Shown here piece by piece: positions 3,865 to 18,859 of a stretch of DNA of 64,000 bases (position 1 is its first letter; each line of letters opens with the position of its first letter). A program made the translations under genes and the position numbers. The stretch covers positions 2,294,001 through 2,358,000 of the forward strand of contig NZ_CP092535.1 of assembly GCF_022437945.1 (NCBI RefSeq). Direction: 5' to 3'. Under the pieces are notes generated by a model. The model did no database searches, was not told the DNA's origin, and worked only from the letters and a program-made list of their open reading frames with translations. The DNA is from Nocardioides sp. TF02-7 (GTDB lineage: Bacteria; Actinomycetota; Actinomycetes; Propionibacteriales; Nocardioidaceae).

Positions 3865-5056
3865 ATGGATTCTTCCCCCCGCGTTGCGGCCGTTCACGCT
3901 GCCCGCGGAGGTCGAGGCGGCGATCCGGATGCAGCTGCCGCAGGTCGCCGACGACATCGTCGAGACGATCGTCGCCGAGGTGCCGAGCTATGAGAACGCC
4001 TTCGTCGACCAGATGGGCGAGGTCATCCGCAACGCCGTGCAGCTGGCGCTGCGCACCTTCCTCTCGCTGGTGAGCCACCGGCGCGACCCCGATCCCGACC
4101 GGCTGCTCCGGCCCGCGATCGACGGCGCCTACCAGCTCGGCCGGGGCGAGGCCCGCAGCGGGCGGACCATCGACGCCCTGCTCGCGGCGTACCGGATCGG
4201 GGCCCGGGTCGCCTGGCGCCAGCTGTCGGGCCACGCGGTGGCCCACGACTCGGGCGCGCCGATGCTCGCGGAGTTCGCCGAGCGGGTGTTCGCCTACATC
4301 GACCAGCTCTCCGCGGCCAGCGCCGCCGGGCACGCCGACGAGTCGGCCAGCACCGGCCGGGCGCGGCACCGCCTCCTCGAACGGATCGTCAGGGCGCTGC
4401 TCGAGGGCGAGCCCGAACCGGCGGTCGTGCGGCACGCCGAGCGGGCGGAGTGGACGCCGCCGGAGACGCTGACCGCGGTGATCGCCCCCGACGCCCACGC
4501 CGGCACCGTGCTCCAGTCGCTCCCGGCCGGCACCCTCCAGGCCGCGGAGCTGCCCGACCTCGACGAGGCGGTGCTGCTGTTCGCACCCGACGTGCACCGG
4601 TGGGCGCGGTCGGCGCTGCTCCGGGTCGCCGAGCCGCTCGGCTGCGTCGTCGGGCCCGGCCGGCCCTGGCTGGACGCCCGGTCGTCGTACCTCCGCGCGC
4701 TGCGGGTGCGCCAGCTCGGGCTGGGCGCCGACACCGAGGCCCACCTCCCCGCGCTGGTGCTGACCGCCGACCCGCTCGCCCTCGCCGACCTCCGGGCGCA
4801 GGCGCTCGAGCCGCTGGCGGGGCTGCGGCCGGCGTCGGCCGCCAAGCTGACCGAGACGCTGCGCGCGTGGCTGCTCCACCAGGGGCGGCGCGACGAGGTG
4901 GCCGAGGCTCTGTTCGTGCACCCACAGACCGTGCGCTACCGCATGACGCAGCTGCGGGACCTCTACGGCGACCGGCTGGAGGACCCCGAGACGGTGCTCG
5001 CGCTGACGATCGCGCTGGGGCACGAGGACGGCCTGGGCGGGCCGGTCGGCGGCTGA
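3865..5056 (+). CDS. PucR/CdaR-type transcriptional regulator
   Basis: About 395 aa. The N-terminal two-thirds is helical and resembles the RsbT co-antagonist-like domain found in many actinobacterial PucR proteins. The C-terminal 60 residues carry the PucR helix-turn-helix (RRDEVAEALFVHPQTVRYRMTQL is the recognition region; HPQTVRYR is diagnostic). The conserved frame opens at a TTG at 3884. Removing one C from the run at 3875-3880 gives a better start, ATG at 3865 (MDSSPALRPFTLP), which I prefer. It is divergent from the reductase-desaturase operon across about 100 bp, so it is a good candidate regulator of that operon. The ligand is unknown. Confidence 0.82.
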
Positions 5057-5066
5057 GAGCCCTATG

Positions 5067-6293
5067 TCAAGCGGCCTCCTGGAGGAGGTCGTTGAGGCGG
5101 CCGTGGCGGTCGGTGTCGTAGGGCACGCGTTCTTGCCAGCAGCGCCACAGGATCCTGGTCCAGCCTTGGGCGAGGATCCTTGCTGCGTGGGGGTGGCGGC
5201 AGCCGCGAGCCCGGGCCCGGTCGTAGGTGTCGCGGGCCCAGGCGTTGGCGCGTGGGGTGTCCTGGGCCCAGTCGATGAGCGCGGCTCGTAGCTGCTTGTT
5301 GCAGCCGCGGCGGTAGGCGACGTTGCGGTGCTTGCCGGACTGGCGGGTCGAGGGTGCGACGCCGGCGGCGGCGGCCAGGGACTGGGCGTCGGGGAATCGT
5401 GCGCGGCAGTCGCCGATCTCAGCCAGGAGGGTTGCTGCGCGGACGACCCCGGCCCGGGGCAAGGACTGGAAGAGCGGCCCGTCGGGATGGGCGAGGAGCG
5501 CTTCGCGGATCCGGGTCTCGAGCTCGTCCTGACTGGCGCGCAGGCCCATAAGGACCTCGACCAAGGTCGTGACGATCAGCTCGGACGCTTCGGCGGCAGC
5601 ACCGGTGGTGCGCCCTTCAGCGGCCTTGCCGAGGTGGTCGACCAGCTGGCGTGGGGTGTGGCGCCCGCAGTAGCTGTTGGCCTTGAGCCAGTGCGCCATT
5701 CGCAGTTCACCACCTCCGGCGGTCAGCCACGCGGCCTTCGCTTCAGAGGGAAATCGGCGCAGGAAGGCGAGGCTGATCGGGATGTCGAGCTGGCTGAACA
5801 GGCCGATCGCGCCGGGGAAGTTGTGCTGCAGCACCGCCAGCAGCTGGTTGTGAACCGCGATGCGGTGCCCGACCAGGTCTTGGCGGGCACGGACCAGCAT
5901 CCGCAACGCGATCGTCTCGGCAGAGTCGGGTCGAACGACCGCCCATCGGCCGGCGTCGGTGCGCAGCGCGTCGGCGAGGACGAACGCATCGAACCGGTCG
6001 TCCTTGTTGCCCGCAGTGCCGTAGCGGGCCCGCAGCGACTTCACCTGCCGGGCTGAGATCACCACGACCTCGAACCCGTCGCGGATCAGGTGCTCGACCA
6101 CCGGACCGTCGCCACGTTCGATCCCCACCTGCGCGACACCGTGTCGTCGCAACAGGGTGGTGATTTTCGCCAGCCCCGGCCGCGAGTGCGGCACGGTGGC
6201 CTCTTCGATGCGCTGCCCGGTGTCGTCGACGATGCACAGCGCGTGGTGCTGCCAAGACCAGTCGATCCCGGCGAAAGTGGGCGTAGCCTGCAT
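5067..6293 (-). CDS. IS110-family DEDD transposase (bridge recombinase)
   Basis: 408 aa, normal length and intact. The N-terminal RuvC-like DEDD domain shows FAGIDWSW, VGIERGDG and NKDDRFDAFVLADAL. The C-terminal Transposase_20 region shows LPRAGVVRAATLLAEIGD and the Ser-containing GVAPSTRQSGKHR motif, Ser being the proposed nucleophile. ATG at 6293 is preceded by an AAGGAG ribosome site. IS110 enzymes join donor and target DNA guided by an RNA made from the element's non-coding end. No frame break is seen, unlike many neighbouring genes of similar length. The element may still be active. Confidence 0.93.
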   Translation of the reverse strand: MQATPTFAGIDWSWQHHALCIVDDTGQRIEEATVPHSRPGLAKITTLLRRHGVAQVGIERGDGPVVEHLIRDGFEVVVISARQVKSLRARYGTAGNKDDRFDAFVLADALRTDAGRWAVVRPDSAETIALRMLVRARQDLVGHRIAVHNQLLAVLQHNFPGAIGLFSQLDIPISLAFLRRFPSEAKAAWLTAGGGELRMAHWLKANSYCGRHTPRQLVDHLGKAAEGRTTGAAAEASELIVTTLVEVLMGLRASQDELETRIREALLAHPDGPLFQSLPRAGVVRAATLLAEIGDCRARFPDAQSLAAAAGVAPSTRQSGKHRNVAYRRGCNKQLRAALIDWAQDTPRANAWARDTYDRARARGCRHPHAARILAQGWTRILWRCWQERVPYDTDRHGRLNDLLQEAA

Positions 6294-6545
6294 GTGAGTG
6301 CTCTCCTTCCGTTAGCCCACGGATTCAGCACTCCGGTCCGGGACGTGACGGTCGGTCGCTCACTGAGGCGCTCCAGGCCGGCAAGCCTTGGCGCAAAGCC
6401 CTATGGCCGATCTGCACGTCCCGGGCCACCGGGCCCTGCAACTCTCAGCCAGGTCGTCCACGAAGGGCGACTCGGTCAGCCCGGCAGTGACCCGGCAGAC
6501 CCGGGGTGCAGACAAGAGACCTACTCCTGTCTGCGCCTAACGTCC
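6294..6545 (-). ncRNA. Candidate bridge RNA region of the IS110 element
   Basis: Gene-free DNA between the transposase start and the presumed left end of the element. On the minus strand it begins with a hairpin at 6508-6534 (GCAGACA ... TGTCTGC) followed by GC-rich segments that could form internal loops. At 6397-6405 it carries AGCCCTATG, identical and in the same orientation to 5058-5066, the junction at the other end of the element. A guide segment of a bridge RNA is expected to match donor or target DNA in this way. The family precedent is IS621. Boundaries, promoter and loop assignment are inference only. Confidence 0.35.
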
Positions 6546-6560
6546 ACCAGTGAGGGGTGG

Positions 6561-8030
6561 TCAGGCGCGGTGGACGACCCGGCCCGCCACGACGGTGACC
6601 ACGACCGGGGGACGGGTGGCGGTGAGCGGGTCGTCGTCGAGCACGACCAGGTCGCCGCGGGAGCCGGGGCCCACGGTCGGCTGCCCGTCGACGGAGCAGG
6701 CGAGCGCCTCCTGCCGGGTCAGCGCGTGCTCGGGGTGCCAGGCCGGCCGGTCGTCGCCGGTGCGGCGGACGGCGGCGTCGATCGCCAGCCACGGGTCGAG
6801 CGGCGACACCGGGGCGTCGGACCCGAGGGTGGTGGTGACGCCGGCGTCGAGCAGCCAGCGGAAGGCGTAGGCGCGGTGGGCGCGGTCGCCCCAGACCTGC
6901 TCGGTGAGGTCGCGGTCGTCGACGAGGTGGTGCGGCTGCACGCTGGCGCGCAGGCCGAGCCGGGCCAGCCGTCCGACCGCCTCGCGGGCGACGAGCTGGA
7001 CGTGCTCGACCGAGCCGCGTGCGCCGGTCGTCTCGTACGCCGCGAGCGCGGCGTCGACCGCCGCGTCACCGATCGCGTGGGTCGCGACCTCGAGGCCCGC
7101 GCGGTGGGCACGGGCGAGCAGCTCGGTGAGCCCGGCCGGGTCGACGTTCGGCGCGCCGGCCGGCTGCGGGTGGTCGCCCTCGACGTACGGCTCGTGGCAC
7201 CACGCGGTGCGGGTGTTGAGCGACCCGTCGCTGATGATCTTGAGCGGGCCCATCGTGAGCCGGTCGTCGCCGGGCAGCAGCAGGTCGCCGGTGCGCAATC
7301 CCTCGGCGACCACGTCGTCGAGCGTCTCGGCGTAGACGGCCGTGCGCACCCGCAGCAGGTCGGCGCCCGCCGGCCAGCGCCGGCGCCACGCCTCGACGTC
7401 GCCGCCGAACTCGAAGTCGACGATGCCCACCACCCCGAGCGCGGCGGCGCGGCGCAGCGTCTCGCGGTAGGCGGCCGGCGACCCGAGGTCGTCGGGCACC
7501 AGCGCCGCCAGCCGCTCGTAGGCGGCGAACCACTCCGCCTCCCGCACGACGTCGTCGCGGAGCTCGAGGCCGAGCGCGGCCTGGGCCGCGCTGTTGAGCC
7601 ACGCGTGGTGGCCGTCGCCGGCGATCAGCACCACCGGGGTGACGCCCGTGATCTCGTCGAGCTCGGTCGCCGTGCCCTCCCGCTCCCACGAGCCGGGGCG
7701 GTGGCCCCAGCCGACGACCGGTCGGCCCGGCTCGGCGGCCACCCGCTGCGCCACCGCGTGCACCGCCTCCTCGGGCGAGCGGAGCGCCGACGTGTCGAGC
7801 CGGTGGCTGGCCAGCGTCCACTGCCCGAGGTGGACGTGGGCGTCCCACAGGCCGGGCGACACCCAGCGCCCGCCGGCGTCCACCACCTCCGCCCCCGGCG
7901 GCCGCCCGACGTCCTCCGCGACCCGCGTGACCACGCCGTCCTCGACCAGCACGTCGACCGGGTGCGGAGGCGCCTCGTCGCCGGGACGCACCGGCACCAA
8001 CCGGGCGCGGCGGATGAGCAGGGCGGTCAT
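6561..8030 (-). CDS. Amidohydrolase family 3 protein (YtcJ-like)
   Basis: 489 aa, ATG at 8030. It shows the amidohydrolase metal-site motifs: DAHVHLG near residue 65, a central carboxylated-Lys candidate in GPLKIISDGS, HAIGDAA, VEHVQLV and the C-terminal SDAPVSPLDPW. The start (LLIRRARL) and end (RGDLVVLDDDPLTA) form the usual split beta-sandwich. Members hydrolyse amide or related C-N bonds of mostly unknown substrates, probably in the cytoplasm. It stands alone, with the IS element downstream and a palindromic repeat upstream. No substrate is indicated by its neighbours. Confidence 0.88.
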   Translation of the reverse strand: MTALLIRRARLVPVRPGDEAPPHPVDVLVEDGVVTRVAEDVGRPPGAEVVDAGGRWVSPGLWDAHVHLGQWTLASHRLDTSALRSPEEAVHAVAQRVAAEPGRPVVGWGHRPGSWEREGTATELDEITGVTPVVLIAGDGHHAWLNSAAQAALGLELRDDVVREAEWFAAYERLAALVPDDLGSPAAYRETLRRAAALGVVGIVDFEFGGDVEAWRRRWPAGADLLRVRTAVYAETLDDVVAEGLRTGDLLLPGDDRLTMGPLKIISDGSLNTRTAWCHEPYVEGDHPQPAGAPNVDPAGLTELLARAHRAGLEVATHAIGDAAVDAALAAYETTGARGSVEHVQLVAREAVGRLARLGLRASVQPHHLVDDRDLTEQVWGDRAHRAYAFRWLLDAGVTTTLGSDAPVSPLDPWLAIDAAVRRTGDDRPAWHPEHALTRQEALACSVDGQPTVGPGSRGDLVVLDDDPLTATRPPVVVTVVAGRVVHRA

Positions 8031-16251: not shown

Positions 16252-16896
16252 ATGTCCCGCGTCCGCGTCCACAACTTCTCGATCTCGCTCGACGGCTTCG
16301 CCACCGGGGAGGGGCTCTCGGCCGAGGAGCCGTTCGGCCACGCCGGTGAGCGGCTCCACGAGTGGATGTTCGCCACCCGCTTCGGTCGTGCCATGAGTGG
16401 GCGCCCGGGCGGGACGGAGGGCGTCGACGACGCCTTCGCCGAGCGGCACGAGCCGGGCATCGGTGCGGAGGTGATGGGCGCCGGCAAGTTCGGGCCACCC
16501 GGCTGGCAGGACGACCCGGACTGGCGAGGCTGGTGGGGCCCGAACCCGCCGTTCCACACCCCGACGTACGTCCTCACCCACCGGCCGCGGCCCCCGATCG
16601 AGATGGAGGGCGGCACCACCTTCCACTTCCTCGACGCCCCGCCCGCGGAGGCGCTCGCGGTGGCGCGGGAGGCCGCCGGCGGGCGGGACGTCCGCCTCGG
16701 CGGCGGACCGACCGTGGTCCGCGACTTCCTCGCCGCCGGGCTGGTCGACCACTTCCACGTGGTGGTGGTGCCGATCGTGCTCGGCCGCGGGGTGCGGCTC
16801 TGGGACGGGCTCGAGGCGCTGGAGGAGCAGTACGACGTCGCCACGGTGTCGTCGCCGACCGGCGTCACGCACCTCACCTTCGGCCGGCGGGCCTGA
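16252..16896 (+). CDS. Dihydrofolate reductase-fold protein (RibD C-terminal-like)
   Basis: 214 aa, ATG at 16252 with a good GGAGG site 5-6 bp upstream. RibD_C/DHFR-type features: start VRVHNFSISLDGFATG, internal PTYVLTHRPR, GGGPTVVRDFLAAGLVDHFHVVVVPIVLG. These NADPH-dependent reductase-like proteins are common in actinobacteria and mostly unassigned. It is convergent with the ABC exporter gene, with 3 bp between the stops. No frame break. Substrate unknown. Confidence 0.88.
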   Translation: MSRVRVHNFSISLDGFATGEGLSAEEPFGHAGERLHEWMFATRFGRAMSGRPGGTEGVDDAFAERHEPGIGAEVMGAGKFGPPGWQDDPDWRGWWGPNPPFHTPTYVLTHRPRPPIEMEGGTTFHFLDAPPAEALAVAREAAGGRDVRLGGGPTVVRDFLAAGLVDHFHVVVVPIVLGRGVRLWDGLEALEEQYDVATVSSPTGVTHLTFGRRA

Positions 16897-16899
16897 CCC

Positions 16900-18859
16900 T
16901 CAGATCGGCACGTCCGCCCGGCGCCCGTCGTCGGCGCGGCCGCCGGGACGGGAGAACTGCTCGACGTAGAGCCGGGCGTAGAGCCCCGTCGGGTCGGCGA
17001 GCAGTTCGTCGTGGGTGCCGCGCTCGACGACCCGACCGTCCTGCAGGCCGAAGATGACGTCGGCGGAGCGGATCGTGGACAGCCGGTGGGCGATCGCGAT
17101 CGTCGTCCGCGAGCGGGTGGCGCGCTCGAGCGCCTCCTGCACCAGCCGCTCGGTCTCGGTGTCGAGCGCCGAGGTGGCCTCGTCGAGCACCAGGATCCGG
17201 GGGTCCTTCAGCAGCACCCGGGCGATGGCCAGCCGCTGCTTCTCCCCGCCGGAGAGGCGGTAGCCGCGCTCGCCGGTGATCGTCTCGTAGCCCTCGGGGA
17301 AGCTCATGATCCGGTCGTGGATGTTGGCGTCCCGCGCGGCCCGCTCGATCTCCTCGGCGGTCGCGCCCGGGCGGGCGTAGGCGATGTTGTCGCGGATCGT
17401 GCCGTGGAAGAGGTAGGGCTCCTGGGTCACCATGCCGACCGCGTCGGCGAGGGACGACAGGGTCAGGTCGCGCACGTCGTGCCCGTCGATGAGCACCGCG
17501 CCCTCGGTGACGTCGTAGAACCGCGGGACCAGGTAGGTCGCCGTGGTCTTGCCGGAGCCCGAAGGACCCACGATCGCCGCCAGCTGCCCGGGCTCCACGA
17601 CCAGCGAGACGTCCTGCAGCGCCCACCCCGGACCGGTCGGCCGGTCGCCGTCCGCCTCGATCCGGACGCCGGAGTCGCCGAACCGGTCGCGGTCGACCGC
17701 ACCCGACAGCGCGCGCGGCTCGGGGTAGCGGAACCACACCCCGCGGAGCTCGACCCGCCCCCGCAGCCGCGCCGGGTCGAGCGCGACCGCGTCCGGCCGC
17801 TCGGTGATCGCCGGCTCGAGGTCGAGGTACTCGAAGATCCGGCGGAACAGGGCCAGCGAGGTCTGCACGTCGAGCGACACCCGCATCAGCTGCATGAGCG
17901 GCATCTGCAGCCGCCCCTGCAACGTGGTGAACGCGACGACGGTGCCGGCCGTCAGCGCGTCCCGCGCCCACCGGCAGGTCGCCGGTGATGATCAGGCCGG
18001 CGACGAGGTAGATCAGCGCCGGCGTGATCGCGAAGAACGTCTGCACCACGGCGAAGAACGTGCGGCCGGTCATCGCCTGCTCGACCTGCAGCCGGGTCTG
18101 GCGGCGGTTGGCCTCGCGGTAGCGCTCGACCTCCTGCGGCGACCGGTTGAAGACCTTGGCCAGCAGGATGCCGGAGACGCTGAGCGCCTCCTCGGTGATC
18201 GCCGTCATCTCCGACAGCGACTCCTGGGTGCGGCGCGCCAGCCGCTGCCGGCGCCGGCCGACGCGCAGCTGCAGCCACACGAAGAGCGGCATCAGCACCA
18301 GGGTGAGGACGGTCAGCTGCCACGACAGCACGACCATCGACGCGAACGCCGCGGCGACGGTGACCGAGTTCTGCACGATCGTGGTCGCCGTGTCGGTGAG
18401 CACGGTCCGCACGCCGGCCACGTCGTTGGCCAGCCGCGACTGGATGGCGCCGGTCTTGGTGGCGGTGAAGAACGCCAGCTCCATCTTCTGCAGGTGCTCG
18501 AACAGGTCGCCGCGCAGGTCGGCCATCGCGGAGTTCCCGACCGTCGAGGTCAGCCAGTTCTGGCCGATGCCGATCAGCGCGGTCAGCACGGGGATGGCGC
18601 ACATGCCCGCCACCAGCCAGCCGAGCAGCCCGAGGTCCGGTGCGCCGCCGTCGACCGGGAACAGGGCGTCGTCGAACACGGCGCGGGTCAGGAACGGCAC
18701 CAGCGCCGTCAGCGCGGCGGCGGCCACCACGGCCACCAGCACCAGCGCGATCTTGCCGCGGTAGGGCCGCAGCAGACGCGCCACCCGCGGCAGCACCGGC
18801 TCCCGCCCGTGGAGCTCGTCGGGCGAGAGGTGGGTGACGACCGGGCTGGGGCGCGGCAT
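16900..18859 (-). CDS. ABC exporter, fused membrane and ATPase domains (one frame break)
   Basis: About 652 aa. ATG at 18859. The N-terminal six-helix exporter domain runs from VARLLRPYRGKIALVLV to about residue 320. The C-terminal nucleotide-binding domain has Walker A GPSGSGKTT, Q-loop TQEPYLFHG, signature LSGGEKQRLAIARVLL, Walker B ILVLDEATSALD and H-loop IAHRLSTI. Pieces join if one base is removed from CCC at 17961-17963. It likely works as a homodimer or half-transporter pair exporting lipids or drugs. Its start overlaps the nitroreductase stop (ATGA), so the two are co-translated. Confidence 0.9.

Follow-up and report, generated by a model that had tools for sequence, protein, structure and literature searches.

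Predicted bridge RNA guides of a Nocardioides IS110-group element correspond to the facing TGA stop codons flanking its insertions

According to the text portions of PMC11208160 and PMC11208158, the IS110-family insertion sequence (IS) IS621 has a long left end carrying a 5′ stem-loop, a target-binding loop and a donor-binding loop, four guides that include the core, a CT core, handshake bases, and a −35 box in the right end. The IS1111 group, in the same portions of PMC11208160, carries its guide RNA in a long right end and has sub-terminal inverted repeats of 7-17 bp. We analyzed a 64,000-nucleotide stretch of Nocardioides sp. TF02-7 (hereafter the window) and describe an element on its minus strand at positions 5058-6552, which belongs to the same recombinase family as IS621 and shares each of the IS621 features listed above. 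Comparison with its relatives makes it highly probable that a bridge RNA guides the insertion of this element at the facing TGA stop codons of converging genes, without damage to either gene.

The 408-aa recombinase (5067-6293, minus strand) matches Pfam PF01548 and PF02371 and NCBIfam NF033542, all above their cut-offs, bearing out an initial annotation that had proposed an IS110 element from sequence alone. Its best solved relative is IS621 chain 8wt6 (phmmer, E 8.3e-9, mainly over residues 248-398); D99, D102, and S319 align with the second aspartate pair and the serine of IS621 (with the chain numbering taken as offset by 2), and D11 and E59 were placed by eye only. The element combines a DEDD RuvC-like domain and a Transposase_20 domain having the catalytic serine with a long non-coding left end (259 bp), a short right end (9 bp), and a left-end bridge RNA with two guide loops recognized by sequence, fold, and covariation, and on these features we place it in the IS110 group of the IS110 family. 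The IS1111 group was ruled out by the 9 bp right end and by the outer 60 nt of the element, in which the longest inverted match is 5 nt and there are no long sub-terminal inverted repeats. We also rejected a TIGR-Tas endonuclease, since NF052498 scored 47.4 bits, below the NCBIfam cut-off of 100.

The genome, assembled as one contig of 4.75 Mb, holds a second copy at 3826017-3827532, and the two copies are identical over window positions 5053-6554 apart from one inserted G. Comparison of the copies locates the ends only to within a few bases; their exact positions come from guide pairing and from relatives with a GT core. In these relatives (the copies in genome G154 and the locus L099), CT is changed to GT at the same place at both ends, so that the right end reads CATAGGGCT-GT-CAG and the left end GT-CACTGG. 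Because the GT relatives change this dinucleotide at both ends, we take the element to be 5058-6552 (1495 bp between the two core copies) and the core to be the dinucleotide adjoining the 9-mer AGCCCTATG. The two CT core copies lie at 5056-5057 (right end; its T faces the final base of a flanking stop codon) and 6553-6554 (left end), both read on the minus strand. The left end is thereby corrected from 6545, where the initial annotation had put it, to 6552, and the CT inside the 9-mer, which that annotation had likened to a core dinucleotide of IS621, is ruled out as the core by the same GT relatives; neither the core beside the 9-mer nor the stop codon in both target guides, described below, figured in it.

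The window copy sits between two convergent genes. Gene A (3884-5056, plus strand), which has a PucR-type C-terminal helix-turn-helix, ends in the TGA at 5054-5056, and gene B (6561-8030, minus strand), an amidohydrolase, ends in the TGA at 6561-6563, with 6 nt between this stop and the core. We scored the flanks of the element's clade (16 proteins forming one clade, support 100/98), together with ends of its type, for coding gene ends. All 21 left flanks read have a TGA 1-6 nt before the core (gaps of 1 nt at two sites, 2 at 11, 3 at four, 4 at two, 5 at one, and 6 at one), so that the left target half is not contiguous with the core at a fixed spacing as in IS621-type targets, and the reading frames of 20 of these 21 TGAs were scored as coding gene ends. 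On the right side, each of the 28 flanks read, six of them from a pattern silent about the flank, carries core+CAG, an opposing-strand TGA, and all score as coding gene ends. The flanks differ between sites, which indicates separate insertions; L124 and L125 may represent opposite ends of a single copy. Paired stops are also seen at recent copies, namely three copies in G154 that are identical over 1469 bp and both copies in the window's genome. In a background of 862 kb from the window's genome, examined with the same scorer, 2117 STCAG sites include 292 at gene ends and 122 with a TGA within 1-6 nt, and both properties coincide at four.

Sites found twice (L012/L046, L016/L050, L041/L049, and L014/L048) each contributed a single count. 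At L014/L048, a contig end truncates the left flank. We excluded the inner right end of L048 (23 codons), where an N and a duplicated end point to an assembly fault; the true right flank of this site was read in L152, where a csrA-like gene was recognized by eye. The right-end pattern gave 33 matches, 30 of them with loci. The three without loci comprise the right ends of L030 and L037 and one match in G138 that was left out. Matches in G054 and G339 belong to another subfamily, and L132, L134, and L139 lie in unrelated sequence. In the latter, from three genomes of the window's genus, GCTTGACATAGGGCT is followed by CTCCGTCGGCGG-like sequence outside any IS end, perhaps a conserved host sequence.

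The initial annotation had proposed a bridge RNA in the left end whose guide matches the other junction, had pointed to a hairpin at 6508-6534, and had suggested folding the region in search of two internal loops. Folding of the left end, read on the minus strand, gave a 5′ stem-loop followed by target and donor loops (z-score −2.56; 2 of 200 shuffles equally stable). The predicted bridge RNA would extend over approximately 6340-6537 (minus strand), with the annotated hairpin as its 5′ stem-loop (GCAGACAGG-AGTAGGTCT-CTTGTCTGC, 6508-6534) and with the two expected loops modeled at 6426-6498 (target-binding) and 6344-6418 (donor-binding). For a covariation test, 42 pairs were written from the element's own fold and the IS621 layout and followed through 12 aligned left ends; 98.8% of cells conserve the pairing, and eight of the pairs change on both sides. 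Fold conservation and two-sided changes were each matched in 0 of 500 shuffles and the number of further pair types in 1 of 500, statistics that ignore the relatedness of the sequences. Sliding the partners left 35-51% of pairs kept, a control that flatters the model because knowledge of these sequences went into drawing the structure. RNAalifold alone gave a partly different structure in which the donor guide pairs with the left end itself. The stems have unpaired A residues where IS621, as we read its layout from the text portion of PMC11208158, flips A out. Taken together, the fold and its covariation support a left end that encodes a bridge-RNA-like guide RNA.

The 9-mer occurs exactly twice in the window, at 5058-5066 directly after the recombinase stop and at 6397-6405 within the left non-coding end, in the same orientation, as first annotated. 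Dinucleotide shuffles of the window contain it 0.03 times on average, in agreement with the earlier judgment that a chance match was unlikely to fall exactly at the junction. Read on the minus strand, the copy at 5058-5066 is the left donor (LD) sequence CATAGGGCT, the right end of the element, and the copy at 6397-6405 is the left donor guide CATAGGGCU, equal to that right end. The initial annotation had held that copies lacking the 9-mer would speak against its proposal; all 18 distinct close copies readable at both places carry it at both, as does the more distant L099. The right donor guide CAGUGAG (6359-6365) is complementary to the core CT plus CACTG. In the target loop, the left target guide region GGGCUGACCGA (6472-6482) contains CUGAC at 6475-6479, and the right target guide GGCUGAG (6444-6450) is complementary to the core CT plus CAGCC, adjoined by a handshake guide AG (6442-6443) that complements the final two left-donor bases; all lie on the minus strand. 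CUGA, and with it a stop codon, is thus present in both target guides.

We examined whether these assignments hold among relatives, for which 115 loci were oriented, 81 had both ends recognized, and 74 remained after removal of duplicates. The left donor guide shares a mean of 7.9 nt with the element's own right end and 6.4 nt with other right ends, consistent with a guide that matches donor DNA, one of the two roles (donor or target) that the initial annotation had named. This longest-match test replaced an 8-mer test that detected the own donor in only 20 of 74 elements, a low figure because the length of LD differs between groups. The right donor guide (the complement of the core and the first five right-donor bases) is present in the left end of 71 of the 74. 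The right target guide matches its own core and right target (RT) in 7/7 columns in 58 elements, 6/7 in 14, 5/7 in one, and 4/7 in one, compared with 7/7 columns in 79 of 4658 pairings with foreign targets differing in RT; this column count replaced an earlier scan of the whole left end in which some matches fell outside the guide. When the varying left-end columns 61-216 were scanned against 35 positions in target and donor, with weighting over 40 clusters, the top ranks went to guide columns 105-107 with RT+5 to RT+3 (0.96, 0.89, 0.95) and to the handshake column 112 with LD−1 (0.98). The handshake base pairs with LD−1 in 73 of 74 elements, which supports, for a distant IS110 branch, agreement with the handshake rule published for IS621 (text portion of PMC11208158).

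Within the clade, core and guides vary jointly (CT with AG, GT with AC), and the right guide GGCUG or GCCUG tracks CAGCC or CAGGC in the target (Fisher p 0.004 and 0.01). The left target guide behaves differently from a fixed-register guide: covariation at a fixed distance from the core gave no strong signal, and a signal appears when the target is anchored on its TGA. The guide base following CUGA (C, G, or A) then equals the target base following TGA at 18 of 21 sites (permutation p 8e-5); with each distinct left end counted once, the figure is 12 of 14 (p 3e-4).

Several observations weigh against guides that read both stops. The left-guide base mismatches at three sites (L012, L015, and L037); the register of the left guide puts the core 1 nt after the TGA, which fits two of 21 sites, and 11 have 2 nt; and all but one (L052) of the 21 left guides read leave the second core position unpaired. 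The left gene of L099 scores only 3, and the gene calls come from a home-made codon scorer trained on one genome, from which alone the background was taken. In 864 kb of the host, the motif CTGAS-N0-5-STCAG has 28 strand-counted matches (14 physical sites), of which 16 lie inside called genes, eight at one called stop, two at neither, and two at both. The caller may have missed genes among the eight, in which case the paired-stop share would rise; with 16 of 28 matches inside genes, insertion guided by the motif alone would often disrupt genes, and selection or an unseen cue is needed to explain the purity observed.

The 16 matches inside genes, where no copy read clearly lies, lend themselves to an alternative in which the right guide and core alone choose the site (core+CAG, containing one stop) and the left stop reflects survivorship, insertions that disrupt or silence a neighboring gene having been lost. 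The right-guide pairing is rigid and strongly covarying and the left spacing loose, as this alternative would have it. We nevertheless consider it unlikely. If survival alone were at work, many copies would be expected downstream of single genes or in wider gaps; of the 292 host gene ends that offer the right-hand context, only 4 face a converging TGA gene end at a distance of 1-6 nt. The agreement of the left-guide base with the base after TGA and the paired stops of the recent copies also argue against it. Four sister elements (L056, L081, L082, and L117) have core+CAG on the right and a left guide without CUGA, and none has a TGA within 8 nt on the left, which implies that the left guide does work; in L082, TGCGAAG plus CT is common to the left guide and the left target, lying in the fixed register of IS621. 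Targeting by both guides thus remains our preferred explanation. The guides appear to narrow the choice of site greatly, selection against gene-breaking insertions probably sharpens the paired-stop pattern, and the division between the two is one that we infer.

It is very improbable that a palindrome or terminator-like hairpin (CTGAS...STCAG) forms the target and that the stops are incidental to it. The arms are indeed inverted copies, and one host match (L177) is hairpin-like by eye, but the next four bases beyond the CTGA and TCAG arms are complementary in 4, 10, 9, and 5 of 20 sites, showing no clear extension, the spacing varies, and most sites already appear to lack a palindrome past the stops. 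Moreover, gene ends are scored at 20 of the 21 left arms and at all 28 right arms, compared with 2 of 28 host motif matches lying at two called stops. Finally, a chance repeat of the 9-mer in a left end that makes no guide RNA is hardly credible: a search of 4900-6800 gave no Rfam match up to E 1, but the presence of the 9-mer at both places in every close copy, the tracking of donor by guide, and the covarying fold all speak against it.

A mechanism can be proposed in which the element excises as a circle with the predicted junction CATAGGGCTCTCACTGG. The junction would place a −35-like TTGACA (5065-5070, minus strand) before the bridge RNA, for which the text portion of PMC11208158 offers a precedent in IS621, and the bridge RNA would then be transcribed from the left end and join the circle junction, as donor, to the genomic target. 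The donor loop would read CATAGGGCT, the core, and CACTG; the target loop would read CTGAS as the left half and core+CAGCC as the right half, which are the TGA stops of two converging genes. Recombination would take place at the core. Because the core T belongs to the right-hand stop (read as TCA), this stop would be restored by the element's own copy of the core, and the left-hand stop would lie outside the crossover, so that both genes keep their ends. Pairing of the left guide would be tied to the stop codon, tolerating 1-6 nt between stop and core; the slack is perhaps absorbed by a looped-out stretch of target, which is a guess.

Nine named loci encode proteins of at least 79% identity, five from Nocardioides, two from Amycolatopsis, and two from metagenome-assembled genomes labeled Micrococcales and Aeromicrobium. 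A class-wide sample of 394 genomes yielded no new match at E 1e-125, and 20 plasmid records matched at E 1e-60, all under 60% identity. In 56 more distant elements, a TGA is found at the same place in 53, and RTGA (R, purine) in 50. When these 50 sites were scored, 29 had a gene end, 28 a gene start on the other side, 21 both, and 14 neither; the host background for CTCAY is 1854 sites, with 108 gene ends, 397 starts, and 35 both. Judged by these counts, the more distant IS110s favor stop/start overlaps of tandem genes. The present clade probably switched from such overlaps to facing stops, a direction that rests on the root of a midpoint-rooted tree. A right-hand core+CAG has also arisen outside the clade, its distribution requiring four changes on the tree.

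We found no empty sites in the exact strains. Element-free orthologous gene pairs lie side by side in L161 and L172 (for the window site) and in L236-L238 (for a site in N. ganghwensis); their gene ends differ in sequence and thus do not fix the element ends to the base. A search among relatives for the element-free join of a G154 site gave matches mainly to the right gene. At an orthologous gene end in G140 (L256, 1640-3260), a different insert of ~1.5 kb duplicates the 3′ end of an exonuclease III-like gene (by eye), as integrating islands do; nothing in this insert matches the IS110 recombinase well. Within the window, CTGACCCTCAG at 16893-16903 lies at two converging called stops and forms a free site of the predicted target kind.

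Individual copies show further changes. In the second copy of the window's genome (L002, G000:C1:3826017-3827532), the extra G falls in a G run and shifts the recombinase frame after residue ~368, near the C-terminus, reflecting either real decay or a sequencing error. One G154 copy (L037) has a tandemly doubled 14-bp stretch of the left end (TCACTGGTGGACCG) and a recombinase gene read in two pieces. Right ends in short loci ending at contig ends (L128, L130, L136, L144, L146, L152, and L153, in G046, G072, G138, and G115) suggest collapsed copies in draft genomes, and copy numbers are therefore probably undercounted.

IS621 targets repetitive extragenic palindromic (REP) sequences. The present element, whose protein is distant, differs from it in having a paired-stop target, in the use of a GT core by some relatives, and in a left target half that lies at variable spacing from the core, mostly with no pairing to the second core base. 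For IS900, another IS110-family element, an older consensus has a gap of 4-6. The IS900 target motif given in the text portion of PMC8141618, CATG-N6-TCTCCTT, resembles that of the present element, by description rather than at the sequence level, as a two-block motif with a gap that recalls a translation signal, in our own reading a start codon and a ribosome-binding site; it differs in marking gene starts. Actinobacterial IS110s that are ~46-53% alike (loci from Pseudonocardia, Nocardioides, and Micromonospora) have the same RNA layout, donor guides, and handshake rule, and differ in a right guide that is mostly NNRUGAG, in the RTGA found at 50 of 56 sites, and in a left guide contiguous with the core.

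Among the papers listed in the literature searches (25 of 670 in one of them), mostly open-access text without figures or supplements, none described insertion aimed at stop codons, start codons, or convergent genes. The seekRNA paper may already display this kind of motif, unnamed, in its target logos; the paired-stop target would be the new part, with weak literature support for its novelty. The chances seem to us evenly balanced that the clade's guides read two facing TGA stops, the left guide pairing at a variable distance from the crossover, and that, together with the RTGA-aimed sisters, this reflects a general 'safe harbour' strategy of actinobacterial IS110s at gene boundaries, one that needs few bases and no repeat or fixed locus. 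If so, a mobile element would be using RNA guides to find gene boundaries, which are present in any genome, and landing there without damage, and a bridge RNA could tolerate variable spacing of its left target half, something not provided for in the rigid IS621 model. The natural handshake covariation adds evidence from a distant branch of the family, and it and the variable spacing both bear on the design of bridge recombinases.
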